Origin: Bacteroidia bacterium
Lineage (GTDB): Bacteria > Bacteroidota > Bacteroidia > 2-12-FULL-35-15
Length of the DNA: 64,000 nt
Assembly: GCA_030654175.1 (NCBI GenBank)
Contig: JAURXZ010000035.1
Span: forward strand, 248,001-312,000
Direction of reading: 5' to 3'
The notes under the pieces are model-generated. The model worked only from the letters and a program-made list of their open reading frames with translations, made no database searches and was not told the origin of the DNA. This document shows, in pieces, positions 28,147 to 49,631 of this stretch. Each line of letters opens with the position of its first letter. Position 1 is the first letter of the stretch. Both the position numbers and the translations under genes were made by a program.

Positions 28147-31100
28147 TTAAATACGAATCCCAATAACCAAAATATCGTCTACCTGTTCTGTAGTACTGCT
28201 CCATGCATCCATAACATCACTTAACAGTATTTCCTGTTCCTGCATTGATTTATTTTGAATCTCAAGTAATAGTTTTTTGAATTTTTTTGTTGTGAATTTT
28301 TTTCCTTTTTCACCACCAAACTGATCGGCATAACCATCTGTGAAAATATAAAATGTGTCACCTGGCTTCAATTGTACTTCATGAGTTTCAAAATGCTGGT
28401 CGTTTTCAGTGAACCCACCAATTGCATTTTTTGTTGCCTTAATTTCTTCTATTTCTAAACTGTCTTTTCGGATAAGCAGAAATGGCCTGTTCGCACCGGA
28501 ATACAAAATTTTGTTGGTTTGCAGATCCATAGAGCAAAAAGCAATATCCATTCCATCGCGGGTAGAACCATCATTTTGCGATTGGTGAAGTGTTGTTTTA
28601 ATTCCCTTATTTATCAACATTAAAATATCCCCAGGAATTTTACTTTGTTGCACGGCATCGTGCAGTTTTTCAGAACCGATCATACTCATAAATGCTCCGG
28701 GAACACCATGTCCGGTACAATCCGCAGCAGCGATAAACACCTCATTCTTTTTAATATCTACGCCAATAGAAGAGATGACAGGAGCCGGACTAAAAAAATA
28801 AAAATCACCACTAACAATGTCTTTTGGTTTATATAATACAAAGCTGTTAGGGAGGGCAGAATAAATTTCTTTCTTATCCGGTAATATCGCTTGCTGTATT
28901 CTTTTTGCATAATTGATACTATCCGTTATCTCATGGTTTTTTTGAACAATTTCAAAATTAGCTTCTGTCAATTCTTTTGTACGCATTGTAACTTGACCTT
29001 CCAGATTTTTCTTCTCTTTTGTTAGTTTACGCTCCCTCCATTTGATGTATCCCAAAACAACCATTATAACAATGAGAATACAGATAATGTAAAATATATT
29101 GGTACGCCAAAATGGAGGAGTAATAACAATTCGGATGGATGCACCTTCTTCATTCCATACCCCATTATTATTAGATGCTTTTACTCTGAAAATATATTCA
29201 CCCGGATCAAGGTTGGTGTAACTTGCATATTGCCTGTTTCCAATATGTATCCATTTATCATCAAAACCCTCCATCATATAAGCATATTGATTTTTAGAAG
29301 ACTGTGCATAGTCCAAAGCAACAAATTCAAAGGAGAAAAAACTTTGTTTATAGGAAAGTAGTAGTTCACGCTTTGTAGAGATAGGAGTATCAAGAGGGAA
29401 TTCTTTTTCAAAAATTTTAAAAGAAGTTAAATATACCGGAGGTTTATGAGTATTATCTTTTATACTATCCGGGTGAAAACTTAACAATCCAGCCATGCTT
29501 CCGAAATACATCATGCCATCCTTTGTTTTACATGCTGCCCCTGTAAATGAATTGCTTGGTAATCCATCATTTATTTCATAATTTTTAAAGATGGCGATGT
29601 CTTTTTTTACAATGTGTTTTTTTTGAATGTCTGCTATTGCCTTTGTCAAATACTCCTTTACAGTTAAGGCTAAAAAGTTGGAAGCATAAAACTTACACAG
29701 TCCTTGATTAGTCGATATCCAAAGGCTTCCATCATCATCAGGTAAAATTCCGGAAATGACATTGTTTGGAAGTCCATCTTTTTCAGTAAAATGATAGAAT
29801 TTATAACCCGAAGTAAATTTATTTTTTCCAGCTTGTAATATAAGTGCATTTAATCCTCCTCCATTAGTGCCTAACCATAATACACCATTAGGAGATTGAT
29901 ATATTGTATTTACTACGTCATTGTTAATACTATTAGGATCCTTTGGGTCATTTTTAAAACAATAAAATTTTCCGGTTGCTCTTTCAAATACATTCAAACC
30001 CTGGCTGCGTGTACTCACCCAAACATTGTTTTGTGAATCTTCAAATAAATTAAATGTATAATTTTCAGAAATGCTGGTTGGGTTTTCAGGATCATTTATA
30101 TAAGATTTTTTCTTCTTTTCCTTAAAATTGAAATTATCAAGACTGCTTGGAGTAGCTGCCCATAGTGTTTTTTTGGAATCTGCTAAAAGGTTAAATACAA
30201 AAGCAGGAAGACCAGCTGCACCATAAGAAGAAGCAGGAGGATACTCAAATTTGTGAGTTGAATAATCAAAACTCATAATACTGTTTGAGGGCATGCCCAG
30301 CCAAAGATGTTGTTCATCAATTTGTTGTATACTACCAATTGGAGGCATGGGGATTTTTTTCTCTCCAAAGGTTACTTTGCAAGTAAAAAAATTAAACTCT
30401 CCAGAAGTTTTGTCGAAATTTGTCAATCCTCCTTTTCCAGTTCCCATCCAGATATCTCCTTTAGGGTCTTCATAAATAGTATATACCAGGTTATGGTTTA
30501 AACTTTTTTCATTATTGGAATTATTTTTGAAAACAATAAAATTATTATTGCTGCTATCATAAATGTTTACGCCTCCTCCATTGGTGCCAATCCATATGAG
30601 GCCCTGATTATCTTCGTAAATTTTAGAAATGTAGTTATTACTTATGCTATTGGGGTTATTGGGGTCATTTTTAAAAACGGTAAATTTACCTGTGTTTTTA
30701 TCAAGGATATTAAGACCATTAAAGGTTCCTGTCCATAAAAACCCTTTAGAATTATCGTAAAGGCAGGTTACACTACTGCTACTAATACTGTTTTTATTTT
30801 TCAGATCAGGAAGGAATTGATTAATAACTGCTTTTTTTTCTTTATTTAAAACACTTAACCCTCCAGTATGATTTCCAACCCAAATTAATCCATTAGCGTC
30901 TTCCAAAATGTCATAAACCCAAACACTGATACCTTTTTTTTTAGATGAAATGTCGTTTATGTAATTCGTGAATTTTCCGGAATGTTTATCAAAGGATTTC
31001 ACCCCTCCCTTATTGCTACCCCAAACTGATAACCATAAAATACCCTCCTTATCTTCAAAACAATTTAAAATAAAATTACAATCTATGCTATTAGGATCGT

Positions 31101-31650
31101 TCGGGTCATTTTTATATACCAAAAAATTACCTGTTTTTTTATCGAATTTATTAAGCCCTCCTCCGTAAGTTGAAATCCACATATCCCCTTCTCTACCTTC
31201 AATAATACCGTTTACCAGATTATGGCTCAAACTGTTTGGATTTTTCGGCTCATTCTTATATACTTTAAATTTACCGTTTTTTTTATCCAGAATACTTAAT
31301 GATCCACTGGTTCCTATCCAAATAAAGCCTTCCTTGTCTTCAAGGATAGAGGTTATGTTGCCGGGGCCTATGGAATTAGTATCATTGGGGTTATGACGGT
31401 AAACAGTAAATTTATACCCATCATATTTATTTAATCCATCACCGGTTCCAAACCACATAAATCCCTCTTTATCCTGTAAAATGGCACTAACATTATTGTC
31501 AGATAACCCATCATCAACAGATAAATGTTTAAACTTTGTATTTTCGGAAAGGCCTTGTGCTTGGGCTTTACCCTGAGAAAACAAAAGAAATATTAAAACA
31601 AGATAAATAGAGACGGAAGGTTTGTTAATATGATAACTAAAAAGGTTCAT
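28147..31650 (-). CDS. Membrane sensor: two-component-type propeller, Y_Y_Y domain and PP2C (SpoIIE/SiaA-like) phosphatase
   Basis: 1167 residues. Signal peptide to about 30. Residues 35-760 contain about 14 Reg_prop repeats (ILQDKEGFMWFGT, SILEDKEGFIWIG and similar), enough for two beta-propellers outside the membrane. A Y_Y_Y domain (about 770-840), a transmembrane helix near 850-870 and a coiled coil follow. The final 250 residues are a PP2C phosphatase with its metal residues: VSGDFYF, ADCTGHGVPGAF, FTDGYADQ and VDDILVIG. It probably senses an external signal and dephosphorylates a SiaC-type partner. Same strand and 58 bp from its paralogue; likely one operon with siaB-siaC. Confidence 0.87.
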   Translation of the reverse strand: MNLFSYHINKPSVSIYLVLIFLLFSQGKAQAQGLSENTKFKHLSVDDGLSDNNVSAILQDKEGFMWFGTGDGLNKYDGYKFTVYRHNPNDTNSIGPGNITSILEDKEGFIWIGTSGSLSILDKKNGKFKVYKNEPKNPNSLSHNLVNGIIEGREGDMWISTYGGGLNKFDKKTGNFLVYKNDPNDPNSIDCNFILNCFEDKEGILWLSVWGSNKGGVKSFDKHSGKFTNYINDISSKKKGISVWVYDILEDANGLIWVGNHTGGLSVLNKEKKAVINQFLPDLKNKNSISSSSVTCLYDNSKGFLWTGTFNGLNILDKNTGKFTVFKNDPNNPNSISNNYISKIYEDNQGLIWIGTNGGGVNIYDSSNNNFIVFKNNSNNEKSLNHNLVYTIYEDPKGDIWMGTGKGGLTNFDKTSGEFNFFTCKVTFGEKKIPMPPIGSIQQIDEQHLWLGMPSNSIMSFDYSTHKFEYPPASSYGAAGLPAFVFNLLADSKKTLWAATPSSLDNFNFKEKKKKSYINDPENPTSISENYTFNLFEDSQNNVWVSTRSQGLNVFERATGKFYCFKNDPKDPNSINNDVVNTIYQSPNGVLWLGTNGGGLNALILQAGKNKFTSGYKFYHFTEKDGLPNNVISGILPDDDGSLWISTNQGLCKFYASNFLALTVKEYLTKAIADIQKKHIVKKDIAIFKNYEINDGLPSNSFTGAACKTKDGMMYFGSMAGLLSFHPDSIKDNTHKPPVYLTSFKIFEKEFPLDTPISTKRELLLSYKQSFFSFEFVALDYAQSSKNQYAYMMEGFDDKWIHIGNRQYASYTNLDPGEYIFRVKASNNNGVWNEEGASIRIVITPPFWRTNIFYIICILIVIMVVLGYIKWRERKLTKEKKNLEGQVTMRTKELTEANFEIVQKNHEITDSINYAKRIQQAILPDKKEIYSALPNSFVLYKPKDIVSGDFYFFSPAPVISSIGVDIKKNEVFIAAADCTGHGVPGAFMSMIGSEKLHDAVQQSKIPGDILMLINKGIKTTLHQSQNDGSTRDGMDIAFCSMDLQTNKILYSGANRPFLLIRKDSLEIEEIKATKNAIGGFTENDQHFETHEVQLKPGDTFYIFTDGYADQFGGEKGKKFTTKKFKKLLLEIQNKSMQEQEILLSDVMDAWSSTTEQVDDILVIGIRI

Positions 31651-31708: not shown

Positions 31709-34700
31709 CTATACACGAATACCTAAAATCAAAATGTCATCTGTTTGATTTTGATTTCCTTTCCATTTGATAATTGTTTCATCAAGTATTTTCTTTTGTT
31801 CCGCCATTTCAAGCTGACATACTGATTGAAGCAAATCGCGAAAAGGTTGATGGAACATCTTTTTATGTTCAGGTCCGCCAATCTGATCCACATATCCATC
31901 TGAAAACATATACAGCATATCACCTTTTAAAAGTTGGAAAGTCTGATTAGTAAAACCTGGTTGTCCTTCTTTTTTATAACTACCAATTGAGCGTTGATTT
32001 GCTTTTATCTGAAAATATTCCCCCGCTCTGAAAATGAGCAAAGGGTTATGCGCTCCGGCATATTCAAGGCTTCCATTTTTTTTATCAACAGAAATAAGTG
32101 CAACATCCATCCCGTATTTGGCTGATGTTTTTTTACTGTTTTGCTTTAGCGTATTTAATATCTTTTCGTTTAGTTCGTATAATATTTCTGAAGGATTAAA
32201 GTTATGATTCTCGTTAATAGTCTCATTCAAAAGATTATGTCCCATCAAAGAAACAAAAGCCCCCGACACCCCATGCCCGGTGCAGTCGGCAGCAGCAATC
32301 AGCACTCTGTCTTTTTCCTCATGTATCCAGTAGAAATCGCCACTTACAATATCCTTAGGCTTATATAATACAAAATGATTTTTGAAATGTTCACTTATTT
32401 CTTCTTCAGAAGGTAAAATAGCCTGCTGAATAATTGAAGCATATTCTATACTGTCGGTAATAGCGATGTTCTTTTTTTCAATTTCTAAATTTTGTTTTTT
32501 AATAACTTCGGTACGCTCGTTAACTTTTTGTTCAAGAATTATGTTTTCTTTCCGGAGCACCCTTTCTCTTAATTTGATGAAGAAAATAATGACCGAAAAA
32601 ATAATTATTCCAAAGAGAATATAAAACCATGTTGTACGCCAAAAGGGAGGCTTAATTGTAAAACTATACGTTATCGGTTCATAGTTCCATACGCCATCAT
32701 TGTTGCAGGAACGGACTTTAAAAGTATAATTACCCGATTCGAGATTAGGATAGGTAATTGAATTTTCCTTTACTACCGGAGACCAATCTTTGTCAAGGCC
32801 CTCAAGCATATAACGATATTTTACACGTTTGGGATTTGTTAAACTTGTTCCAACAAAGTCGAATGTCAAATGGTTTTGAGTCCATGGAAAAATATGATCA
32901 GCAGGGATCTCCGCATTCTCAAAAAACAACCGTGGATTTTTTATAGTAGTAACCGGCTCGATAAGATTATTTTTTTCAAGTTTGCTGTTGTATTTCACTA
33001 ATCCTATAATGGAACCAAACCAGAGATTACCATTTTTATCATGACAAACAGCGTTAGGATTTATTTCCACTCCAAGGAAGCCATCCTCTTTTTCATAATG
33101 TTTGAATGTTTCATCTCTCAGGTTGAACTTATCGATACCAAGGCCCGATCCTATCCAAAGATTATTCTTGCGGTCACAAACAAGCAGAAAAGGGGTGTTT
33201 GAGGCCAAGCCATCTTTTGTTGAATAATTTTTGAATAGATCTCCTCCTTTTTCTAATAGTGCTAAAGGATCGTATTTGTATATGCCAAGATCATGTGTTC
33301 CGAACCACAAATTGCCTTTTATATCTTCTGAGATGCAGATCGTGAATTTGCAGGGATAACCATCTTTTTGAGAGAATTTTTTAAAAAGTTTCCCATCAAA
33401 CCTGTTCTTTGAAGTGAACGGAATCTCACTGTCGTACATTGTAAGATCACCTGAAAGTGCACCAAACCACATTCTGTTTTTGCTGTCACGAAAAATTGTA
33501 TAGATCTGGTTGCTGCCTACACCATCATCAGTTGTATACCTTTCAAATGTTTCTGTAATTAAATCAAATTTCAGCAATCCTCCCTTATTGGTACCTATCC
33601 AGATATTCCCATCTTTATCTCCATTGATACAGTATATCTCATTTACAGGCAAACCATTTTCGGTTGTATACTTTTTGATCCCCCCCGTTAAAGGATTGAA
33701 TCTTGACAGGCCTTGTCCAAAATCAGTGAACCAGATATTGCCTTTTATATCTTTGTAAAGTGCGCTTGTGTTGAGTGCCTGCCCTTCCTTTCCAGTGTGA
33801 CGAATGAAACGATAATTATTGGTTCCTGCTGTCTTCCCGGCCAAACCCTCTGTTTGGCCTTCGCGATGTTTCTCTTTCCCCGGGGCGTCTGTTGAATTGG
33901 CTTCCGGTATGAATTGAATAAGTCCGCCTTCAGTACCGATCCAAAAATCGTTATTCGAACCTTCTATTATCGACCAGACCAAACTATTCAGCAAACCTTC
34001 GTTTTCACCATAAATTTCGAACTGTTCATCAAAGTATTGGTTCAAATTTAAAAACGTACCTATCCATATATTTTTCTCTCTATCCTGTATCATGGATAGA
34101 ATGCGGTTATTGCTAAGGCCATGTTGAGTTGATATCGTTTGAAAGGCGGTGTTTTTATAATTGTTCGCTTCAAGTTGAGGAAGATATTTTGAAACCCCTC
34201 CATCATACGTGCCAATGAAAATGGTTCCGTTTTCGGATTCAAAAACAAGTGTCACACGGTTACTGGAAAGACCATCCAGGGTATTGTATGCTTTCAAAAG
34301 GTTGTCGGATGCATTAATACGCACCACACCATAATCGGTGGTCCCAATCCATTTATTGCCTTTGCTGTCGCAGAATAATGAGGCAATGGATTGACTCGGA
34401 AAGTATGTATCCAAAGCAGAAAGTTTCGTTTTTGCAAGCGTGATTCCTTTCGCTGTGCCAATCCAAATTACACCATCTTTGTTTTCCATCAAAGAGGTAA
34501 CAGCATCACTTGTTAAACCATCTTTTGTTGTGAAATGGGTGAAAATTTTATTTTCATATTTCAGCAGGCCCTGTCCTTCAGTTCCGACCCAAACCCTGCC
34601 TTTCCTGTCGGAAAGGACGCAGGTAATCGTTTTTGAAATTTTTATATTTTGGGGGATTACCTCAAGGAATTTTTTTGTAGCAACATCATATCTTGTTATT

Positions 34701-35017
34701 CCGCCCGACCAATGTCCAAACCAGATATCCCCATTTTTATCGAGACAAGAAGAGGTTACTCTGTTCTCTGCCAATCCATCTTTTTTATTGAAGTTCTCAA
34801 AATTCAGTCCATTGTACTTACTAACACCATTCATCGTTCCTACCCAGATAATTCCATCTTTATCCTGAAGCATAGTGTAAATGCTGGATTGTGGCAAGCC
34901 TTCTTCAATACCAAACTTACCAAGGTTGAGCGTTTGTGCCGATACAGAATTAGTATTACAAATTACAGATAGTAAAATGTAAAAGAATAAAATCCAAAAC
35001 GCTTTTATTTTCTTCAT
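31709..35017 (-). CDS. Second propeller/Y_Y_Y/PP2C sensor phosphatase
   Basis: 1102 residues in the same order as the neighbour: signal peptide, roughly 14 Reg_prop repeats (MLQDKDGIIWVGT, LMENKDGVIWIGT, INGDKDGNIWIGT), Y_Y_Y domain about 725-790, transmembrane helix about 795-815, coiled coil and PP2C domain about 865-1102. Its metal residues are intact (VSGDFYWI, ADCTGHGVSGAF, FSDGYVDQ, TDDILILG). Between propeller repeats near residues 376-400 there is a charged, repeat-like insertion whose DNA holds a perfect GGCCAAAC palindrome. Protein identity to the neighbour is modest in the sensor and high in the phosphatase. Confidence 0.87.
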   Translation of the reverse strand: MKKIKAFWILFFYILLSVICNTNSVSAQTLNLGKFGIEEGLPQSSIYTMLQDKDGIIWVGTMNGVSKYNGLNFENFNKKDGLAENRVTSSCLDKNGDIWFGHWSGGITRYDVATKKFLEVIPQNIKISKTITCVLSDRKGRVWVGTEGQGLLKYENKIFTHFTTKDGLTSDAVTSLMENKDGVIWIGTAKGITLAKTKLSALDTYFPSQSIASLFCDSKGNKWIGTTDYGVVRINASDNLLKAYNTLDGLSSNRVTLVFESENGTIFIGTYDGGVSKYLPQLEANNYKNTAFQTISTQHGLSNNRILSMIQDREKNIWIGTFLNLNQYFDEQFEIYGENEGLLNSLVWSIIEGSNNDFWIGTEGGLIQFIPEANSTDAPGKEKHREGQTEGLAGKTAGTNNYRFIRHTGKEGQALNTSALYKDIKGNIWFTDFGQGLSRFNPLTGGIKKYTTENGLPVNEIYCINGDKDGNIWIGTNKGGLLKFDLITETFERYTTDDGVGSNQIYTIFRDSKNRMWFGALSGDLTMYDSEIPFTSKNRFDGKLFKKFSQKDGYPCKFTICISEDIKGNLWFGTHDLGIYKYDPLALLEKGGDLFKNYSTKDGLASNTPFLLVCDRKNNLWIGSGLGIDKFNLRDETFKHYEKEDGFLGVEINPNAVCHDKNGNLWFGSIIGLVKYNSKLEKNNLIEPVTTIKNPRLFFENAEIPADHIFPWTQNHLTFDFVGTSLTNPKRVKYRYMLEGLDKDWSPVVKENSITYPNLESGNYTFKVRSCNNDGVWNYEPITYSFTIKPPFWRTTWFYILFGIIIFSVIIFFIKLRERVLRKENIILEQKVNERTEVIKKQNLEIEKKNIAITDSIEYASIIQQAILPSEEEISEHFKNHFVLYKPKDIVSGDFYWIHEEKDRVLIAAADCTGHGVSGAFVSLMGHNLLNETINENHNFNPSEILYELNEKILNTLKQNSKKTSAKYGMDVALISVDKKNGSLEYAGAHNPLLIFRAGEYFQIKANQRSIGSYKKEGQPGFTNQTFQLLKGDMLYMFSDGYVDQIGGPEHKKMFHQPFRDLLQSVCQLEMAEQKKILDETIIKWKGNQNQTDDILILGIRV
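33839..33859. repeat. Perfect palindrome inside a coding insertion
   Basis: GGCCAAAC-CCTCT-GTTTGGCC lies in the DNA of a charged insertion (GKEKHREGQTEGLAGKTAG) in the propeller of the surrounding sensor gene. The insert is richer in G and C than its surroundings. Confidence 0.6.
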
Positions 35018-37584: not shown

Positions 37585-40500
37585 TTAATTATTAGCCACA
37601 ATCAGCCAATTACTCCCATCACTTAAAACCGTTAAATATTGATATTGCAATGCTAAAAGTTTTGTTGGAGCTCCGTCTATCGTTTCTGCGCCATTGGCAC
37701 TAACAGTAACAGTTGTAGCGGCATCAATGTTTTTTACAGTGTATTTTCTTCCGGCAATACCCACCGCAGTAGGTAAAGTAATTGTGGTAGTACCAGTTAC
37801 AGAAACTATATCATCGCTTGCTGTTAAAGTATAAGCCGAATTTTTTGCACTAAAAGCTGTAGTATAACCATTGGCAGTAAGTGTTCCTGAAGTTAAAACA
37901 TTGGTAACACTTGTATTACCAAGCTGAATAGTATTATCGGCCGTTATTTGAGCGTCATAACCTAATGCGGTTGAATTCGAAAAGGCGGTTCCGGAATTGA
38001 ACGCATTAAAACCCAAAGCAGTATTGTTTGCTCCTGAAATATTATTTTTAAGTGAATTCATTCCATTTGAAGTGTTTTGAAAGCCGTTAGTGTTATTTTT
38101 AAGGGCGTCTACCCCGTTTGCAGTATTGCCATAACCGATATCGTTGTTTTTAAGCGCACTTTCTCCGTAAGCGCTATTATTGTTTGCTGTGATATTACGA
38201 TAAAGTGCGCCATTTCCTGTAGCGGTATTGTACTTCCCTGAAATGTTGAAATATAGTGCCCCTGCTCCGGTAGCGGTATTTTGTTCTCCTGTAATATTAA
38301 AACTAAGAGCACCTACACCTGTGGCTGTATTGTAATTCCCTGTGGTATTATAATGAAGTGCTCCACCTCCAGTCGCTGTATTGTATTGGCCTGATGTATT
38401 TGCATAAAGTGCACTCAATCCAGTTGCAGTATTATAGATTCCAATAGTGTTGGAATAAAGGGCACTATCTCCAATAGCAGTATTATAAGACCCCAGCGTA
38501 TTTAGGTAAAGTGCTCTAAACCCATAAGCCGTATTATTGATTCCTGCGGTATTAGAATATAATGCCTGGTATCCACCGGCAACATTTTCTCTTCCGGAAG
38601 CATTGAATTTCAAAGTTTGGTATCCAATAGCCGTATTATAAATTCCGATATTAACTGCAGGTGTTGATGAACCTCTCAGTGCCTCAAATCCAACAGCCAC
38701 ATTATTGTTATCAAATGCTGTTGAAGTATTATTTGCATATTGCATGGCATTTACGCCTACAGCAGTAGCGTTAGAACCTGCAACGTTCGAATAAAGTGCC
38801 TGGAATCCATTTGCAGTATTGCTGCTTCCTATTGTATTGAGATACAATGAATAAGCTCCATTACCTGTATTTTTGATTCCTGTGGTATTCGAATAAAGAG
38901 CTTGTATTCCATCGGCAGTATTATAGTTTCCTGTGGTATTGAAACGAAGTGAATTCATACCCGTGGAAGTATTCTGAATTCCGGTAGTGTTTGCATAAAG
39001 CGCTTGTAAACCGGTTGCCGTATTATGGGTTCCGGTGGTGTTATCATGCAGAGCCTGCTCACCGGTGGCGGTATTATAGAAACCTGTAGTATTTAAAAAA
39101 AGTGAATTTGACCCGAAGGCGGAATTTTGATATCCGGTAGTATTGGAATAAAGAGCCTGTATACCATTGGCAGTATTGTAGGATCCGGTAGTGTTAAAAC
39201 GGAGCGAGTTTGCACCGAATGAGGTGTTCTGAACCCCTGTGGTATTATCAAAAAGGGCCGAAAATCCATTAGCGGTGTTGAAGTCTCCGGTAGTATTTGC
39301 ATAAAGTGCCGCGTATCCCATTGCAGTATTGCGGTTTGCCGTGGTATTTGATTTAAGTGCGCCCGAACCTGTTGCAGTATTCCAGTTCCCTGTGGTGTTT
39401 AAATAAAGTGAATATGCTCCTGTAGCGGTATTTTCGGTACCAATACTATTTGTATAAAGCGCCTGTATGCCAGTTGCAGTGTTATAGCTACCGGTGGTGT
39501 TGAAAAAAAGAGAATTCATGCCGGTAGCAGTATTTTGAATCCCGGTAGTATTAGTATAAAGGGCTTGCATTCCGTTTGCTGTATTATAATCCCCTGTGGT
39601 ATTTGCATCACCAGCTCTATAACCCCAAAAGGTGTTGAAAAGAAGATGATCAATTCTTCCCGCCTTTTGATTATTTACACGAATATTGAATGGAATATTA
39701 TCAGTTGTTCCGATAAAATTTGTACCATCAACTGTGCTGTCATTACCAACAAGCGACCAGGAGGTTTTAGTTGGAACACTTCCCCATACACCAGTTCCCA
39801 GCAAAACCTGGGAAACGGAACCAGCTGCAAGCGGAACTAAAGTCCCGTTCAAATCTGATTGTATCACTCGTGTTCCTATGCCTGCTAACCCGGATATTCT
39901 CGCATTCCCGGTTACTTCTAGCTTTTCTGCGGGAGATGTGTTGCCGATGCCAATATTGCCAGCATTATTACTGTAAATATCCGAACCGGAAGCAGTCCAA
40001 ACACTATTAAAGGTGGATCCTGTTAATGTTAACCCGGTTCCTGCATTGTAGGCCGAACTAGAGTCTGCTCTCCAGGCGGGTGCTCCAGAGGCATCTGTTT
40101 TCCAAACCATGTTACTTTGTCCGGCACCGGAGGTAACAATCCCATCACTCGAAGCGGTATTGCCAGCAATTGAAATAACAGGCGTTGTTGCACCTGTTGT
40201 TACTGAAATTGGTAAAACACCAGTAACGTTGGTTACAGTTCCATTATTGGGTGTGGTCCAGGTTGCTAAACCGGCAGCATCTGATGTTAGTACTTTACCA
40301 GATCCAGGCGTTCCTCCGGTAATTTTCACTTGCCCCGTTACTTCAAGTGTTGCACCTGGAGTACTTGTTCCAATACCCACATTGCCGCTAGAAAAATCTC
40401 CATAAATTAAAGGAGGATTTGAACTGTTATTTGCAATATAGAGCTTGTTTGAACCCGTTTCGTTATAACCTGCCTCATAACCAAGAAACACGTTGCCACT

Positions 40501-41862
40501 GCCAATAGAATCATGAAATCCTGCATTATATCCTAATGCAACATTATTATTTCCGGTGTTACCTGAATAAAGTGAATTGGTACCAATTGAGGTATTGTTG
40601 TTTCCTGTTGTGTTGTCAGAAAGTGCATATTTTCCTACCGCAGTATTTGAATCACCTATGGTATTATTATACATCGATTTTGCTCCAACAGATGTATTTG
40701 AGCTTCCAGTTACGTTATAGGTAAGTGATAAGTCTCCCAAAGCTGTATTATGAAAACCTGTTGTGTTGAAATCAAGGGAATAGGCGCCAATTGAAGAATT
40801 GCCATATCCCGTAGTATTAAAAGTACCTGCACGATAACCCCAAAAAGCGTTGGTTAACTGTTTTTCTATTCTCCCGGCTTTTTCATTATTCACCCGAATA
40901 TTAAATGATTTATCGTCTGTGGTTCCAATGAAGTTTGCTGTATCAACCGTTCCTGCATTGCCATTGAGAGACCAGGCGGTGCTTGTTGGTACACTTCCCC
41001 ATACTCCTGTACCAAGTAAAACCTTGTTAGCGCTATCAGCAGCAAGGGGGATTAATATTCCATTCGGATCTGCCTGCACTATTCGCGTACCTGTACCTAA
41101 CAAACCGGATATTTTGGCATTTCCCAATACGTCTAACTTTTCTGTTGGGGTATTTATTCCAATGCCTACATTACCAGTTGCAGTCACTCTTATTTTCTCT
41201 GTATTATTTGTTTTAACAACAAAATCTACAGAATCAGAAGTTCCGATGAAGTTTGTTCCTGCTATAGTACTATCATTGCCTGTTAACTTCCAATTTGTTT
41301 CAATTGCACCTGAATTTCCTGAATTTAAAGAATAAAGAGCTGTGTCGGATTTAGAAGCATAAAACGAATATGGGGTAGCCATAAACTGCTGAACACTCAT
41401 TAGTTTATAATTACCCTCATTTTTAATATCTATTTCTACCTTTAAAAATTGGTTGGCGGCTGACCATGGAATATCAATCATAAGTTGGTATTGTCCATTG
41501 TTGCTTACAGTACCATCACCAATGATCAATGAAAACAAACCATAATGATCAGTATTTGCAGAATGAACTTCCTGATAAAGAACTGTACCGACCGAACTTC
41601 CACTTAAAATTGAAAAACGTACAGCAATGGTTTTATTTTGGATGGACTGCCCGCTAAGGTCCATTCCAACAATTTCTTTTCCATTTTCATCAATAGCTAT
41701 AGCCTGATAATTTAATCCTCTTAATTGTGCTAATCCGCTCTGACTTATAAACAATAAAAAAAAGCCAAAAACCCAAATTGGCAAAAGAGATCGCTTCCGT
41801 AGTAATGGACCTTTCCACCAATTACCAAAAGGCTGTGACCGGCTTATTGATGAATGTTTCAT
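37585..41862 (-). CDS. Giant beta-roll repeat protein, predicted surface fibre/adhesin
   Basis: 1425 residues. A long signal region ends near residue 46 (QSGLAQ). Residues 47-170 are an N-terminal domain common in Bacteroidota fibre proteins (LRGLNYQAIAID...MATPYSFYA). About six then about thirty tandem 17-residue repeats follow, of the form YNTATGxxALYxNTTGx. They resemble YadA-type head repeats and would stack as a beta-roll. The two blocks are separated by coiled-coil-free linkers, and SFNIRVNNQKAGRI-type segments precede each. The last 90 residues end in ASDDIVSVTGTTTITLP, as in tail-fibre-like C-termini. No type IX sorting domain is seen, so how it is anchored is unclear. Confidence 0.75.
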   Translation of the reverse strand: MKHSSISRSQPFGNWWKGPLLRKRSLLPIWVFGFFLLFISQSGLAQLRGLNYQAIAIDENGKEIVGMDLSGQSIQNKTIAVRFSILSGSSVGTVLYQEVHSANTDHYGLFSLIIGDGTVSNNGQYQLMIDIPWSAANQFLKVEIDIKNEGNYKLMSVQQFMATPYSFYASKSDTALYSLNSGNSGAIETNWKLTGNDSTIAGTNFIGTSDSVDFVVKTNNTEKIRVTATGNVGIGINTPTEKLDVLGNAKISGLLGTGTRIVQADPNGILIPLAADSANKVLLGTGVWGSVPTSTAWSLNGNAGTVDTANFIGTTDDKSFNIRVNNEKAGRIEKQLTNAFWGYRAGTFNTTGYGNSSIGAYSLDFNTTGFHNTALGDLSLTYNVTGSSNTSVGAKSMYNNTIGDSNTAVGKYALSDNTTGNNNTSIGTNSLYSGNTGNNNVALGYNAGFHDSIGSGNVFLGYEAGYNETGSNKLYIANNSSNPPLIYGDFSSGNVGIGTSTPGATLEVTGQVKITGGTPGSGKVLTSDAAGLATWTTPNNGTVTNVTGVLPISVTTGATTPVISIAGNTASSDGIVTSGAGQSNMVWKTDASGAPAWRADSSSAYNAGTGLTLTGSTFNSVWTASGSDIYSNNAGNIGIGNTSPAEKLEVTGNARISGLAGIGTRVIQSDLNGTLVPLAAGSVSQVLLGTGVWGSVPTKTSWSLVGNDSTVDGTNFIGTTDNIPFNIRVNNQKAGRIDHLLFNTFWGYRAGDANTTGDYNTANGMQALYTNTTGIQNTATGMNSLFFNTTGSYNTATGIQALYTNSIGTENTATGAYSLYLNTTGNWNTATGSGALKSNTTANRNTAMGYAALYANTTGDFNTANGFSALFDNTTGVQNTSFGANSLRFNTTGSYNTANGIQALYSNTTGYQNSAFGSNSLFLNTTGFYNTATGEQALHDNTTGTHNTATGLQALYANTTGIQNTSTGMNSLRFNTTGNYNTADGIQALYSNTTGIKNTGNGAYSLYLNTIGSSNTANGFQALYSNVAGSNATAVGVNAMQYANNTSTAFDNNNVAVGFEALRGSSTPAVNIGIYNTAIGYQTLKFNASGRENVAGGYQALYSNTAGINNTAYGFRALYLNTLGSYNTAIGDSALYSNTIGIYNTATGLSALYANTSGQYNTATGGGALHYNTTGNYNTATGVGALSFNITGEQNTATGAGALYFNISGKYNTATGNGALYRNITANNNSAYGESALKNNDIGYGNTANGVDALKNNTNGFQNTSNGMNSLKNNISGANNTALGFNAFNSGTAFSNSTALGYDAQITADNTIQLGNTSVTNVLTSGTLTANGYTTAFSAKNSAYTLTASDDIVSVTGTTTITLPTAVGIAGRKYTVKNIDAATTVTVSANGAETIDGAPTKLLALQYQYLTVLSDGSNWLIVANN

Positions 41863-42142: not shown

Positions 42143-42790
42143 TTATTTAGAAGTAACGTAATTGTATTTTATGATCGCAACGGATATCCCTAAATTAATT
42201 GAAAACCCACGATTATAAGATTTTTGGTCGGATTTTTCCAAATTCTGTAATCCCAGAATGTATTTATATTCGGCATAAAAAGAGATAATATTTGACAAGG
42301 CCATTTTTAAACCTGGAGAAAAAAACAAGCCATAATCAGTAGTTTTTATTGATTTATTTTGCATAATATCATACGTATCAGGTCCAATTGTTTGATTCGC
42401 TTTTAGCATATAACCAAAATAAGGCGACACCGAAAAATAAGGTTTTAACCGCCATTTATTAAGCATATACCCTACCCCAAGACTGGCATCTGCATATTGA
42501 ATATTCCAATTTACATTTGTTTCATCAAAAATAATTGACGCTCCTGCTTTACGCATTCCTAAATTCGCGCGAATGAACAATCCGTTATAATGCTCATACT
42601 GATATCCTAAACTAAAGCAGCCCGAAATATTATTTGAAAATTTTTTTTCCTCAACACCCTGGGCATCTGTAAATTTAAATGTTGAGAACACTTGTCCTGC
42701 ATCAAATGTAGCGTTAGACTGGGCTTTTGCAAGGGATGCAAAAAAAAGCATTGTAAATAAAAGGGGGAATTTAAAGAAGTGAACCTTCAT
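42143..42790 (-). CDS. Outer-membrane beta-barrel protein (PorT-like)
   Basis: 215 residues with a signal peptide (LLFTMLFFASLAKAQ) and about eight amphipathic strands: GCFSLGYQYEHYNGLFIRANLGMR, YFSVSPYFGYML, YGLFFSPGLKMAL and a final GFSINLGISVAII. The family is the generic porin-like outer-membrane barrel found throughout Bacteroidota. It is 6 bp downstream of a type IX cargo gene on the same strand, so the two are probably co-transcribed. Function unknown. Confidence 0.7.
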   Translation of the reverse strand: MKVHFFKFPLLFTMLFFASLAKAQSNATFDAGQVFSTFKFTDAQGVEEKKFSNNISGCFSLGYQYEHYNGLFIRANLGMRKAGASIIFDETNVNWNIQYADASLGVGYMLNKWRLKPYFSVSPYFGYMLKANQTIGPDTYDIMQNKSIKTTDYGLFFSPGLKMALSNIISFYAEYKYILGLQNLEKSDQKSYNRGFSINLGISVAIIKYNYVTSK

Positions 42791-43463: not shown

Positions 43464-46400
43464 TCATATACGGATACCTAAGACTAAAATATCATCCGTT
43501 TGATCTAATTTCCCTTTCCAATCTGAAATTGTTGTATCAAGTATTTTCTTTTGTTCTGACATTTCAAGACCACAAATGGACTGAAGAATATCTCTAAAAG
43601 GTTGTGAAAACATTTTTTTGTTTTCGGGTCCTCCAATCTGGTCGGCAAAACCATCAGAAAACAAATATAACATATCACCTTTCCTGAGCAGGAAACTGTG
43701 ATTGGTGAAACCTTGCTTTTCATTTTTCTGATAGCTTCCAATTGAACGCTGGTCTCCTTTTATAGGGATATATTCATTACCTCGGAAAATAAATAAAGGG
43801 CTGTGGGCACCAGCAAATTGTAATTTTGACAGGAGTTGGGAGTTTGGAGTTTGGAGTTTGGAAGCGTTCTCCGTTCCATCAATTCCGAACTCCAAACTTA
43901 TAAGGGCAATGTCCATTCCATATTTCACGGATGTTTCTTTACTGTTTTGCTTAAGGGTATTCAAAATTTGGATGTTTAATTCATCCAGAATTTCCGAAGG
44001 AGTATGCTTTCCTTTCACTTTAATTATATCATTAAGGAAATTATTCCCCATTAGCGACATAAACGCTCCAGGTACTCCATGTCCCGTACAATCGGCAACA
44101 GCGATCAAAACGCGCTCTTTATCTTCGTAGATCCAATAAAAATCACCGCTAACAATATCCTTTGGTTTGTATAAAATAAAGGATTCCGGCAAGTGTTTTT
44201 GTATCTCTTCTATTGGCGGAAGCAAGGCTTCCTGAATACTTTTTGCATAGTTGATACTATCCGTAATTTTTTCGTTTTGCTGCCTGATACCATCTTCTGC
44301 TTTCTTACGTGCTGTTACATCAATATCTATGATCACCCATTTTTTAACATTGCCCAATTCATCCAGAATAGGTGTAAGGGAACTTTGCACCCATAGTTCT
44401 TTACCCGCTTTGGTAATGTTTAATGCTTGATACATTGATGATTTTTTATTTTCAATGCAATCATGAACTAAGGTCTTTATATCCGGGTTATGGCTGATCT
44501 TTTCTAATGTGTTCCCCCTTTGTTTTAGTTCTTCTAAACCATACCCCTGAAGACGGGTAAATCCTGAATTTACCCATTCTATTTCACCGGTTGCCCCAAA
44601 AATTAATACACCATTATCCGTTTCACTTGCCACAATGGATAATCTGGCCAACTCATCATTTTGTTTTTCAATTTCAAGCGTACGCGCTTTTACTTCATCC
44701 TCCATAGTTTCATAAAGCCGGGCATTTTCAAGTCCGTTAACTACATAAACAGCTAGATTTCTGAGAATATTCAATTGATATTCGGTATATGCATTTTGTT
44801 TAAAACTTTGAACGGTGATCACCCCTACCATCTTATTTCCCGTGGAAATGGGCAGGTAAATAATAGATTCGGATTGCTCTCCTGCCTTAGGCACAGGAAT
44901 TTCTCTTCCGGGGAAATAGTTATTGTATTCTTTATTAAGGTCATTAATAAATATTTCTTTTTGATTTTTAAAACACCAAACAGCTGGGCGGCTTTCATCG
45001 TTTAATTCATTTATATAGAATGGCAGTTTTTCTCCCTTTTCAATAAATCCTGAAAAATCAATTCGTTTTTCATCATCATTATAAATACCAATGCCAAATG
45101 CAGAAGCATCCATTAATCTGTTTACATTTTCATATACTTTATTGATGATCTCTTCAACTGATAAAACTGAAATGATCTCTCTTCCAATATCGCTTAGGAG
45201 TTTAGTATTCTGATAAGATCTTTCTACCTCTTCTTTCTGCTTTAAAACTTCATCCGTTCGCTTTATTACTTTTATTTCAAGGTTTTCATAAAGTTGAGCG
45301 TTTTCTATTGCAATGGCGGCATATATAGCCATACTTTGCAAAATATTCAAATGATATTCTGAAAAAGCATGTTTGCGTGCACTCTGCACAGTAATTACAC
45401 CGATCGATTTGCCCTTTGTTATAAGTGGAATATAAATTATAGATTCAGACGCAAGACCTGCTATTGGCGCAAGAAGATTAGGCAAGTATTTTTTATATTC
45501 TTTTGAATGTTCATTAATAAAAATGATCTTACTTTCATTGAAACATAAGCTAGGAAGTCGGTCATTCTTTTCAACCCCTATTGATTGAAAAGGTATTTTT
45601 TCACCATTTTCTATAGTCCCGATAAAATCCAATTTTTTTTCTTCTTCGTTGTATATACCAATAGTAAATACGGAAGCATCCATTAATTTATTTACATTTT
45701 CATATACTTTTTCAATTATTGTTTCAATTGAAAGGGATGAAGTGATCTCTTGTCCAATTTCACTTAATACATTAATATTATTACGTGAAACTTCAAGCTC
45801 TTCTTTTTGTTTAATAACCTCTTGCGTTCTGTATTTTACCTCCTCTTCCATATTTTGATACAGATGAGCATTTTCCAGAGCATTTACTACATAAACAGCC
45901 AAATTCCTAAGTATATCGAGGTGGTATTCGGTATATGCATTTCGCTTAAAACTCTGAACAGTGATAACACCGATCTGTTTACTCGGAGTTGAAAGTGGGA
46001 GATAGATCAGCGATTCTGAACTAACGCCTTCTTTAGGCAAAGGCTTTTTTTCACCAGGGAAGTAAAGGTTATAATCGTTTTGATAATTATTCGTAAATAA
46101 TTCCTTTTGCTTATTAAAGCACCAAACTGCCGGCCGCCTTTCATCAGTCAGTTCATCGTAATGGGTTGGTAATTTTTCACCTTTCTCAATTAACCCCGAA
46201 AAATGAAGACGTTTATTCTCTTTATCAAATAGTCCAATTCCGAATGCAGAAGCATCCATTAATTTATTTACATTTTCATATACTTTATTAATAATTTCTT
46301 CAACTGATAAAACGGACGATATCTCCCTGCCAATATTACTAAGCAGTTTTGTGTTTTCATATGATTTTTCTACCTCTTCCTTTTGTTTCAGAACTTCAAT

Positions 46401-49400
46401 GGTCCGCTCTTCAATTTTCTCCTCAAGATTTTCATACAACTGAGCATTTTCCAAGGCAATTGCAGTATAGTTGGCAAGGGTTCTCAACATTTTAAGATGA
46501 TGCTCAGTATAACTGTTTTTCTGATAGCTTTGAACAGTTATTACTCCAATTACGGTCTCCTTTAAGATCATCGGACAAAACAATAAAGAGTGAGTCATTT
46601 CACCATTTATTATTACGATATTATTAACGTATTTTTTATGTTCATTGAGATTGTCGTTAATAAATATTTCCTTCTTATTTTTAATACACCAAACGGATAA
46701 ATTATCGTTATTGTCCATTGTAAAGGAAAAAGGTGCCACCCTTTCACCTTTATCATATTCGTATTTAATATCTATCGTATTATTTTCAGGATGATAAATA
46801 CGGACACCAAATGTTTCAGCATCCATCAAACGGTTAATGTTTCCATGAAGTTTGCTGAAAATACTTTCAAAATCAAGGGTAGAAGTAAGTTCCTGTCCAA
46901 TTTCACTTAATACGCTTAAATTATTACGGGAGATCTCAAGTTCTTCTTTTTGTTTAATAACTTCCTGTGTTCTGTTTTTAACCTCTTCTTCCATGCCTTT
47001 ATACAAGTGGGCATTTTCCAGTGCATTCACTATATAAATAGCCAGGTTGCGGAGAATATCCAGCTGATATTCAGAGTAAGCATTTACTTTAAAACTTTGA
47101 ACGGTAATTACTCCTATCTGCTTATTCGAAATAGAAAGAGGGAGGTAAACGAGTGATTCGGGTAGATCGCCTTCTTTTGTAAATGGCAATGTTTTACCAG
47201 GGAAGAAGTTGGTGTAGTCCCTTCTGAAATCATTGGTAATAAATTCTTTTTGATTTTTGAAACACCAAACAGCAGGACGCTTTTCATCAATTAATTCATA
47301 ATAAAAGAAAGGCAGTTTTTCTCCCTTTTCAATAAAGCCTGACACGTCAAGCCGGTTTTCCGACTTATTATAAATTCCAATACCGAATGCCGAGGCATCC
47401 ATTAATTTATTAATACTTTGATAAACTTTATTTACTATTTCTTCAACTGATAAAACGGAACCGATCTCCCTTCCAATATTGCTAAGTAACTTTGTGTTTT
47501 CGTAAGCTTTTTCAACCTCTTCTTTTTGTTTCAATACCTCTTCTGTCCTCTCCTCAACTTTTCCTTCCAGGTTTTCATATAATTGAGCGTTTTCTATAGC
47601 AATGGCAATATAAACGGCCAATTTTTTAAGGATGTCCAGGTGATACAAGGTATATGAATCTTTACTGAAGCTTTCCACTGTGATCACTCCAATTACTTTA
47701 TTTTTAGAGAACAGAGGTAAATAAATGAGTGATTCCGGGCGTTCACCAACCACCGGAATTGGGATATATGGTATGTATTTTTTAAACTCTTTCCGTAAGT
47801 CATTAATAAAAATTTCCTGTCCATTGTTAAAACACAAAACCGGGAAACGAGTGTTATCATTTAGATCATAGGAACTATTATATTTTTTCCCTTTTTCTAT
47901 AAAACCAGGGAAATCGATCGTGTTTTTAGCTTTATTTGGAATCCCGATGCAAAAAACATCTGCCATCATTAATTTATTTACATTTTCATAAACTGTTTCA
48001 ATTATTTTTTCAACAGAAAGAGAAGACGTTATTTCTTGTTCGATCTGGTTTAAGATGGAAATATTTTTATAAGATTTTTCAACATCTTCCTTCTGTTTTG
48101 TAATGGTTCGGTATTCTCTGAGTATAAAAAATATGAGTATCAACACTAATCCAAATCCAATAATACAGGCATTTCTCTGGAATTGTTGCTTTTCGGTTTC
48201 GGCATGCTGTTTAGCTATTTCAGCATCTTTTGCTATCAGTTCTTTGTCCTTTTTTTCGCTTTCATACTTAGCGCTCATCTCAACTACCTCCTTGCTGGAT
48301 CGCCCCTTGAGAAGGGCATCTTTCATTCCGGTATAGAGTGTATGATATTCATAAGCCTTTTGATAATTATCTAATTTTGCATAAACGCTGGCAAAGTTCA
48401 GGTATAGATCTTTTAAATAATTTTTATCACTGAAAGACTTAGCACCCTCATAACATTTATCAAGGTATTCAATTGCTGTTTTATAATTACCCTGAGAGTA
48501 ATAAATATCGCCAATTGTGCCATACAGCGATGTTCTCATCTTTTTATTGTTGACCTCTGTTGAGAACTTTACACCTTCAAAGGCAAATTCAAGTGCCTCA
48601 CCAAATTTTTCCTGCCCGGCATAGATACACGCCAAATAGTTATCAGAACGAATGATGCCATTCTTATTGTTATTTTTCAGATGAATCACCCTTCCTCTAC
48701 TCAGGTAATCCATTGCTTCCGGGTGAGAACCCTTATAAACAAAGGTTTGAGATTTACCCAGATTATTTTTTTCGTATAAAACAATTCCGATCGAAACATA
48801 AACATCTGCAATGCCGTTTTCATCATTAATTTTCTCATACATTTTAAATGCCCTGAAAAAATACTTTAAAGCACCATCGTAATTGTTCTGATTTTGATAA
48901 AGTTGTCCTATCAAATAGATCAATCCGGCCTCTTGTTTTTTATCTTCAATATGCCTGCTCATAAGCTCGGGGGCTTCCGACCTTGCTGAGACCTCTTCAG
49001 ATAATTTTAAAGCCTCAATATAAAACTTCATCGCTTTATTAAAGTTATTCTGCTTCAAGTACAGATCGGCAATACTGGTTAAAGTAACAATGATCTCCTT
49101 TTTGTTATCTAATTCATGAAATATTTTTAAGGATTGTAAATAGTAATCTATTGCTTTTTCAGTATTGTTGCTTGATCTGTATGTAAGTCCCAGGTTTGTC
49201 AGAGACCTGGCCATTCCTTTTTTAAAGGATAAATTTTTAGATAATTTTAATGCTTCCTCCGCAAATTGAATTGAATTCTCAGCCGATTTTCTTCTCGATA
49301 CAAAACTCAATTCATTTAAAATATTTACTTTATTGGTGTCTTTTTTTGCGACTTTTAAAATGCTTTGCAAGGAGTCGATATTGCTGCTATGATCGTTGTT

Positions 49401-49631
49401 TGCAATAGTTTTATGGGAGGAAAATAAAAAAACAGAGGCAATTAAAATACAAGAGAGTAAATAAGGAAGAGCTTTAGTTCTGCCCTGTTCGTTTTTAAAA
49501 AAAAAGTGTTTTTTAAAATATACAATAGATTCCTGGGAATGTTTAGTACTCAGGGCTGTAAGGAAGTATATAGCTGTTATTAAGGTTTTCATCAATTTGT
49601 ATCGTATTTTCAAATATTTATTAAAATACAT
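43464..49631 (-). CDS. TPR - six GAF - PAS - PP2C signalling protein
   Basis: 2055 residues. A hydrophobic segment is near residues 55-72, followed by about eight tetratricopeptide repeats (95-430) and a membrane helix near 490-510. Six GAF domains follow at about 530, 710, 900, 1095, 1280 and 1470, each preceded by a helical KQKEEVEKSYxN linker. Then come a PAS domain (about 1650-1775; GEIEWVNSGFTRLQGY) and a PP2C phosphatase with VSGDFYWI, ADCTGHGVPGAF, FSDGFADQ and TDDILVLG. The GAFs alternate between two subtypes. It likely reads internal or envelope signals and acts on a SiaC-type partner. It lies alone, downstream of the polysaccharide region. Confidence 0.85.
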   Translation of the reverse strand: MYFNKYLKIRYKLMKTLITAIYFLTALSTKHSQESIVYFKKHFFFKNEQGRTKALPYLLSCILIASVFLFSSHKTIANNDHSSNIDSLQSILKVAKKDTNKVNILNELSFVSRRKSAENSIQFAEEALKLSKNLSFKKGMARSLTNLGLTYRSSNNTEKAIDYYLQSLKIFHELDNKKEIIVTLTSIADLYLKQNNFNKAMKFYIEALKLSEEVSARSEAPELMSRHIEDKKQEAGLIYLIGQLYQNQNNYDGALKYFFRAFKMYEKINDENGIADVYVSIGIVLYEKNNLGKSQTFVYKGSHPEAMDYLSRGRVIHLKNNNKNGIIRSDNYLACIYAGQEKFGEALEFAFEGVKFSTEVNNKKMRTSLYGTIGDIYYSQGNYKTAIEYLDKCYEGAKSFSDKNYLKDLYLNFASVYAKLDNYQKAYEYHTLYTGMKDALLKGRSSKEVVEMSAKYESEKKDKELIAKDAEIAKQHAETEKQQFQRNACIIGFGLVLILIFFILREYRTITKQKEDVEKSYKNISILNQIEQEITSSLSVEKIIETVYENVNKLMMADVFCIGIPNKAKNTIDFPGFIEKGKKYNSSYDLNDNTRFPVLCFNNGQEIFINDLRKEFKKYIPYIPIPVVGERPESLIYLPLFSKNKVIGVITVESFSKDSYTLYHLDILKKLAVYIAIAIENAQLYENLEGKVEERTEEVLKQKEEVEKAYENTKLLSNIGREIGSVLSVEEIVNKVYQSINKLMDASAFGIGIYNKSENRLDVSGFIEKGEKLPFFYYELIDEKRPAVWCFKNQKEFITNDFRRDYTNFFPGKTLPFTKEGDLPESLVYLPLSISNKQIGVITVQSFKVNAYSEYQLDILRNLAIYIVNALENAHLYKGMEEEVKNRTQEVIKQKEELEISRNNLSVLSEIGQELTSTLDFESIFSKLHGNINRLMDAETFGVRIYHPENNTIDIKYEYDKGERVAPFSFTMDNNDNLSVWCIKNKKEIFINDNLNEHKKYVNNIVIINGEMTHSLLFCPMILKETVIGVITVQSYQKNSYTEHHLKMLRTLANYTAIALENAQLYENLEEKIEERTIEVLKQKEEVEKSYENTKLLSNIGREISSVLSVEEIINKVYENVNKLMDASAFGIGLFDKENKRLHFSGLIEKGEKLPTHYDELTDERRPAVWCFNKQKELFTNNYQNDYNLYFPGEKKPLPKEGVSSESLIYLPLSTPSKQIGVITVQSFKRNAYTEYHLDILRNLAVYVVNALENAHLYQNMEEEVKYRTQEVIKQKEELEVSRNNINVLSEIGQEITSSLSIETIIEKVYENVNKLMDASVFTIGIYNEEEKKLDFIGTIENGEKIPFQSIGVEKNDRLPSLCFNESKIIFINEHSKEYKKYLPNLLAPIAGLASESIIYIPLITKGKSIGVITVQSARKHAFSEYHLNILQSMAIYAAIAIENAQLYENLEIKVIKRTDEVLKQKEEVERSYQNTKLLSDIGREIISVLSVEEIINKVYENVNRLMDASAFGIGIYNDDEKRIDFSGFIEKGEKLPFYINELNDESRPAVWCFKNQKEIFINDLNKEYNNYFPGREIPVPKAGEQSESIIYLPISTGNKMVGVITVQSFKQNAYTEYQLNILRNLAVYVVNGLENARLYETMEDEVKARTLEIEKQNDELARLSIVASETDNGVLIFGATGEIEWVNSGFTRLQGYGLEELKQRGNTLEKISHNPDIKTLVHDCIENKKSSMYQALNITKAGKELWVQSSLTPILDELGNVKKWVIIDIDVTARKKAEDGIRQQNEKITDSINYAKSIQEALLPPIEEIQKHLPESFILYKPKDIVSGDFYWIYEDKERVLIAVADCTGHGVPGAFMSLMGNNFLNDIIKVKGKHTPSEILDELNIQILNTLKQNSKETSVKYGMDIALISLEFGIDGTENASKLQTPNSQLLSKLQFAGAHSPLFIFRGNEYIPIKGDQRSIGSYQKNEKQGFTNHSFLLRKGDMLYLFSDGFADQIGGPENKKMFSQPFRDILQSICGLEMSEQKKILDTTISDWKGKLDQTDDILVLGIRI
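43839..43899. repeat. Repeat-derived in-frame insertion with a 7-bp tandem repeat
   Basis: Three copies of GGAGTTT (43839-43859), then an imperfect inverted repeat with arms 43847-43863 and 43883-43899 (15 of 17 pairing), lie inside the PP2C domain of the surrounding gene. The paralogues have a continuous ISVDKKNGSLEYAGAH at this point, so about 20 residues appear inserted here. Confidence 0.65.

Follow-up and report, generated by a model that had tools for sequence, protein, structure and literature searches.

Six GAF domains of four types in a predicted membrane phosphatase of a Bacteroidia bacterium, arranged in different orders in its relatives

How does a single protein come to carry six sensor domains of one fold, and must these stand in a fixed order? 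The question is raised by a reverse-strand gene in a stretch of 64,000 nucleotides (the window in what follows; positions 248,001 to 312,000 of contig JAURXZ010000035.1) from the Bacteroidia bacterium assembly GCA_030654175.1. The gene encodes a protein of 2055 amino acids (aa) that contains, from the N- to the C-terminus, tetratricopeptide repeats (TPRs), a transmembrane helix, six GAF domains, a PAS domain and a SpoIIE/PP2C phosphatase domain. An initial annotation had read the GAFs as three alternating A-B dyads, and had concluded that a two-domain unit was repeatedly duplicated. The six GAFs are confirmed by domain search, since PF13185 matches the protein in six stretches (E 6e-86), as are the TPR and PAS parts upstream of the phosphatase, both found by Pfam with SpoIIE (PF07228, 56.7 bits for a cut-off of 25). 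The array is, however, made of four GAF types and not two, two of these types have exchanged places in a relative, and the junctions between GAFs fall into a few length classes with only two helix phases.

Four types of GAF, their order and their junctions

GAFs 2, 4 and 6 belong to one subtype, B, as first proposed: their cores are 69-71% identical (72-73% with the linker), and the core starts (47486, 46343 and 45197) are spaced by 1143 and 1146 bp, in agreement with the period of about 1143-1146 bp already noticed. The assignment of GAFs 1, 3 and 5 to a second common subtype does not survive alignment. Their cores are 42% (1-3), 54% (1-5) and 42% (3-5) identical, and because this is no higher than the identity of each to the core of GAF 6 (56% for GAF 1, 41% for GAF 3 and 55% for GAF 5), they form three types, A, C and D, rather than one group. 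The linkers of the odd GAFs, also said to match, do so in part: those preceding GAFs 3 and 5 share 84% identity, and the stretch preceding GAF 1 matches neither (24%). The 84% match probably explains the impression that the odd GAFs share a subtype. Seventeen alignment columns are conserved inside every GAF type yet differ among types, and 11 of them set C apart. Tandem Repeats Finder reported no GAF-sized period in the DNA (its longest period was 500).

A search of the genus (36 genomes; some 11 candidates were scored per genome, which makes the counts lower bounds; searches at family and order level returned the same 36 genomes) yielded at least eight genes of this kind. The GAF array is complete in our gene and in genomes G025, G018, G011, G006 and G010, and is cut by contig ends in G008 and G021 (records L051 to L054 appear to be the same as G018, G011, G008 and G021). 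Its order is A-B-C-B-D-B in our gene and in G025, A-B-D-B-C-B in G018, A-B-C-B in G011 and G006, and A-C-B in G010, where the linker from A to C is 11 residues shorter, as though one B had been deleted. C and D have swapped places between our gene and that of G018: our GAF 3 is 79% identical to GAF 5 of G018 and our GAF 5 is 75% identical to its GAF 3, against 38 and 40% for the same-position pairs at slots 3 and 5. The grouping of dyads by position that the three-dyad scheme implied is therefore not what the relatives show, and in a tree of 53 GAF rows position groupings for the C and D slots are rejected with p values of the approximately unbiased test (p-AU) of 4e-39 and 1.7e-9. G006 and G010 come out as sisters whether the tree is built from the phosphatase part or from the TPR part (100/100 in each), most other branches being weak.

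The junctions between neighbouring GAFs, measured from the conserved strand end of one to the core start of the next and with proteins that share their last 200 residues counted once, are 64 residues long in 72 of 96 cases, 57 in 16 and 53 in four, with 85, 39, 60 and 67 found once each. Relative to 64, all 96 stand at 0 (89) or +3 (7) modulo 7; the cores of 132 distinct GAFs take ten lengths, from 123 to 134. This pattern suggests that the phase of a coiled coil is kept from one GAF to the next, which may be what permits GAFs to be swapped. Against this it must be said that the 96 junctions are related and not independent, with by eye some 7-9 length changes behind the non-standard ones, that one of the -7 junctions (L145) comes after a doubtful GAF match, and that the +3 class was noticed only after the data had been viewed, though -4 is a known class in the PadC cyclases discussed below.

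Are the GAFs then sensors at all? They might be mostly a passive rod that spaces the membrane from the phosphatase, with ligand sensing minor and with number and order free to drift, and the variation in GAF number (3, 4 or 6) fits this idea, as does the comparison of our gene with G025, in which same-slot B cores (60, 66 and 77% identical) are generally less conserved than those of A, C and D (76, 79 and 72%). We nevertheless consider a passive rod unlikely: between our gene, G018 and G025 the cores of A, C and D have kept 72-79% identity despite the change of slot of C and D in G018, suggesting that their pockets have been kept, and the 17 columns that are conserved within types and distinguish them point the same way.

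The phosphatase domain and its candidate substrate

The PP2C part has a single match in the PDB at an E threshold of 0.001, namely 6k4e (E 1.7e-35), titled "putative serine phosphatase", which we take to be SiaA. In an alignment of eight orthologs, ours included, GDFYW and SDG are present in all eight, ADCTGHG in seven (G010 has ADCTVHG) and TDD, near the end, in seven (G011 has unknown residues there); these are the metal-binding aspartate motifs of SpoIIE/PP2C, and our protein carries them all. Because one hydrophobic segment precedes the TPRs and another lies at residues 489-505, the TPR part is predicted to be periplasmic, and the GAFs, the PAS domain and the phosphatase to be cytoplasmic. 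Segments resembling the first also precede the TPRs in G018, G011, G006 and G010, the G025 gene being cut at its start.

What this phosphatase acts on is suggested by its neighbourhood. A SiaB-like kinase gene and a gene for a SiaC-family phosphoprotein lie on the same strand some 6-7 kb downstream, separated from the phosphatase gene by three other open reading frames (ORFs) (Table 1). In Pseudomonas aeruginosa, according to PMC7647112, SiaA and SiaB determine whether SiaC is phosphorylated at Thr68, and a crystal structure of the PP2C domain of SiaA has been solved. When this position was located by eye against the SiaC Thr68 peptide given there, Ser or Thr was found in 10 of 10 aligned SiaC proteins (seven of the nine of our genome, plus those of G018, G011 and G219). 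In G018 and G011, too, the ortholog has relatives of both SiaB and SiaC nearby, and in G011 they follow it directly. Our genome has nine SiaC matches, and nine SiaB-type matches in six ORFs, with none of either in 14 control genomes; a SpoIIE domain is at most 0.5, 2 and 5 kb away from 4, 5 and 6 of the nine SiaC matches, respectively (p 1e-5 to 8e-5, with upper-bound coverages; for the five at 2 kb, a coverage of 0.046 gives a binomial p of 2e-5). These data point to a SiaA-like phosphatase that would act on SiaC.

Several observations speak against such a pairing. The NCBIfam model of SiaA (NF038263) gives 179 bits, over the PP2C part only, for a cut-off of 700; near the orthologs of G006, G010 and G025 a search as far as the contig end revealed no SiaB-SiaC pair; the SiaC gene of the window has its closest SpoIIE domain 4.2 kb away, which puts it in the 5-kb but not in the 2-kb group, and that domain is part of another phosphatase; and with 48 SpoIIE ORFs for nine SiaC any pairing in this genome would be many-to-few. 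We think it unlikely, however, that the substrate is instead a STAS anti-anti-sigma protein of the RsbU/RsbZ kind. Such a role would recall RsbZ, a tandem-GAF PPM phosphatase of the general stress response (PMC12143880), and our genome does have three PF01740 matches (one with an internal stop), two PF13466 matches at two of the same places, and one HATPase_c_2 match above cut-off in a short ORF of 157 aa; but it is SiaB and SiaC relatives that are in the window, where no STAS match occurs within the 64 kb, and the nearest PDB chain is 6k4e.

Table 1. Position of the phosphatase gene, of its parts and of the SiaB- and SiaC-like genes in the window
Feature	Positions	Strand	Basis and remarks
Six-GAF SpoIIE/PP2C phosphatase gene, 2055 aa	43464..49631	-	ORF call and Pfam
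Likely signal peptide, residues 54-77	49401..49472	-	Hydrophobic segment in sequence
TPR repeats, residues ~110-430	48342..49304	-	Pfam
Transmembrane helix, residues 489-505	48117..48167	-	Read from sequence
GAF 1 core, type A	47601..48053	-	Sequence comparison
GAF 2 core, type B	47025..47486	-	Sequence comparison
GAF 3 core, type C	46458..46910	-	Sequence comparison; type also in other families
GAF 4 core, type B	45882..46343	-	Sequence comparison
GAF 5 core, type D	45312..45767	-	Sequence comparison
GAF 6 core, type B	44736..45197	-	Sequence comparison
PAS domain, residues 1673-1773	44313..44615	-	Pfam
SpoIIE/PP2C phosphatase domain, residues 1838-2054	43470..44120	-	Pfam; nearest PDB sequence 6k4e
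SiaB-like kinase gene, 188 aa	36920..37486	-	Profile match, PF19788/DUF6272
SiaC-family phosphoprotein gene, 130 aa	36459..36851	-	Profile match, PF09345; Ser at the place lined up by eye with Thr68

Some further features of this locus and genome can be mentioned here. The gene at 42143-42790 stays adjacent to the phosphatase gene in G018, G010 and G006. The reverse-strand frame 37585-41862 encodes a 1425-aa protein rich in repeated NTATG-type motifs, with no Pfam match at E 0.1, and a similar sequence occurs near the orthologs in G018, G025, G010 and G006. Two adjacent proteins, at 28147-31650 and 31709-35017 on the reverse strand, combine Reg_prop propellers and Y_Y_Y with a SpoIIE output. 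In the whole genome (G000), 52 SpoIIE matches reduce to 48 ORFs after split ones are merged by hand, and pairs of PF19788 matches occupy single frames of 376-395 aa beside SiaC matches (C35:714-1676, C16:105993-106940 and C34:523329-524276), apparently double-SiaB proteins. In another family (f16, genome G219), a three-GAF PP2C gene (L138, 4673-7561) is followed after about 25 bp by a SiaC-like match. Finally, in its PP2C coding part our gene has, in a variable loop at 43832-43862, a tandem GGAGTTT repeat of 4.4 copies whose 7-bp unit is not a multiple of three, so that a change of copy number would shift the reading frame. A run of three exact units is present at one place in the genome, and a run of two or more was seen at none of 17 other loci tested, orthologs included.

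Origin of the array

How much of the duplication scenario can be retained? The two-domain rhythm and the recurrence of B stand; the copying of a single A-B dyad does not. In a class-wide tree of 93 GAF cores, which includes rows from other families and leaves out three near-duplicate row groups, our C branches with the C-type GAFs from such families (100/92), and a single clade uniting all odd GAFs of this gene family is rejected (p-AU 2e-6), as is a clade of A and C alone (3e-4). Paralogs in G018 and G006 moreover combine A with C and contain no B. A scenario in which a single A-B dyad is duplicated in tandem and the A copies later diverge into A, C and D would account for the likeness of the B copies and for the 84% identical linkers before GAFs 3 and 5. 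It can also appeal to the 53-row tree, in which neither the odd GAFs as one clade (p-AU 0.333) nor C with D (0.35) is rejected, and to the B copies that follow D, which possibly form one clade (p-AU 0.448). We regard it as improbable all the same, the position of C and the rejection of the odd-GAF clade in the 93-row tree largely refuting it. Since ortholog orders vary, the copying of a single dyad fails to explain the arrays, and a cassette array with a recurrent B does explain them. The B copies themselves are not sorted by slot: of six groupings tried, those of slot 2 (p-AU 0.014), slot 4 (0.008) and the copies after C (0.0015) are rejected. As for the grouping after D, D and its following B may have moved as one unit.

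The number of GAFs had been called unusual, and it turns out not to be unique. A search of the class, which covered 395 genomes and gave matches at 1e-70 in 33 of them (two candidates were scored per genome), revealed a second family, f41, with nine matched genomes; all eight of those examined for the array have six GAFs before a PP2C domain, and two such GAFs are present in the ninth (G075). In the five of the eight to which TPR and PAS probes were applied there are TPR and PP2C matches and none to the PAS probe, and the other three have a PP2C match. With type letters assigned in this analysis (P' and S being weakly supported there), the orders read from the tree are P-C-Q-R-Q-R in four genomes, P-C-Q-R-P'-R in two and P-C-Q-C-S-R in two that are nearly identical to each other. 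A dyad, Q-R, has apparently been duplicated within f41 arrays. Wherever a short junction occurs in f41 it precedes R, so that the linker seemingly travels with the GAF after it. Six-GAF PP2C proteins of different make-up are thus found in two families; the literature searched (titles and beginnings of abstracts, among the matches listed) showed no comparable six-GAF array, and the phrase "six GAF domains" stood in none of the papers of the library searched.

That the swapped order of G018 is an assembly error is very improbable: G018 does seem to be the same as the metagenome-assembled record L051, and B copies are similar, but repeat-driven misassembly is unlikely because the longest exact repeats within the gene are 38 bp in ours and 30 bp in G018, the G018 gene lies within a single 170-kb contig, and six-GAF arrays with differing slots occur in the eight f41 genomes too.

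The explanation that we favour, with moderate confidence, is a membrane phosphatase with a six-GAF cassette array of four types, whose connecting helices are fixed in phase, and with SiaC as the substrate of its PP2C domain. The array with its four types, their permutation and differing number in orthologs and the length classes of the junctions come straight from the sequences; the rest is proposed on that basis. Periplasmic TPRs would be followed by the cytoplasmic array, ending in PAS and PP2C. Cassettes would be gained, lost and permuted through recombination, for which the repeated B copies are the likely substrates, and any GAF could feed the common helical spine provided that helix phase is kept. 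The PP2C domain would strip phosphate from a SiaC-family protein, opposing the SiaB-like kinase, and several cytoplasmic ligands, presumably different for the different GAFs, would be summed with one periplasmic input into one SiaC phosphorylation state. More tentatively, we propose that this is a naturally recombining multi-input receptor, in which GAFs are inserted, lost and permuted while two helix phases are kept, B serving as the handle for exchange.

Other data count against these proposals. Recent exchange among B copies is not seen in their DNA identities: recent homogenisation was rejected, as the copies of our gene are 72-74% identical to one another, within the range of 64-77% to those of other genomes (one pair reaches 87%), so that recombination is itself inferred. 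Three of the six B groupings are not rejected, namely the copies after D already mentioned, those before PAS in six-GAF genes (p-AU 0.111) and all those before PAS (0.141).

Comparison with known systems

The D-B dyad, modelled with 13 rows (pLDDT, the predicted local distance difference test, 77.9; pTM, the predicted template modelling score, 0.61), retrieves, as the two top Foldseek hits, the tandem GAFs of PDE5A (3lfv) and of a cyanobacterial adenylyl cyclase (1ykd). These are, however, pairs of GAFs in cyclic-nucleotide enzymes, and the query TM score over the pair is only 0.36 and 0.34. The PDB sequence nearest to the array, 5w10 (E 2.5e-07), is titled as a GAF with cAMP, which is no proof of cAMP binding here.

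The junctions recall the PadC phytochrome cyclases, where the main classes of linker length are multiples of seven (54%) and -4 (38%) according to PMC9587094. Length differences are mostly of these same two kinds in both cases, but the PadC linker joins PHY to GGDEF and ours joins GAF to GAF. RsbZ of Clostridioides difficile likewise has tandem GAFs ahead of a PPM phosphatase, with a predicted coiled-coil linker, and it has been proposed that such linkers are what makes bacterial sensor domains exchangeable (PMC12143880); our protein differs from RsbZ by its six GAFs of four types, its membrane helix and its different likely partner. This idea of exchange becomes testable here, as orthologs of this gene from a single genus bear the same sensors in exchanged order and with two helix phases, that is, natural rather than engineered variants with which to study how sensors can trade places while the switch keeps working. 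With SiaA of the P. aeruginosa SiaABC system, our protein shares the same kind of PP2C domain and the nearby SiaB and SiaC relatives, and it differs by the six GAFs, the TPRs and the PAS domain added in front, as well as by its score below the NCBIfam cut-off. None of the parts of this phosphatase is new in kind; what is new is their permuted arrangement at a fixed helix phase.

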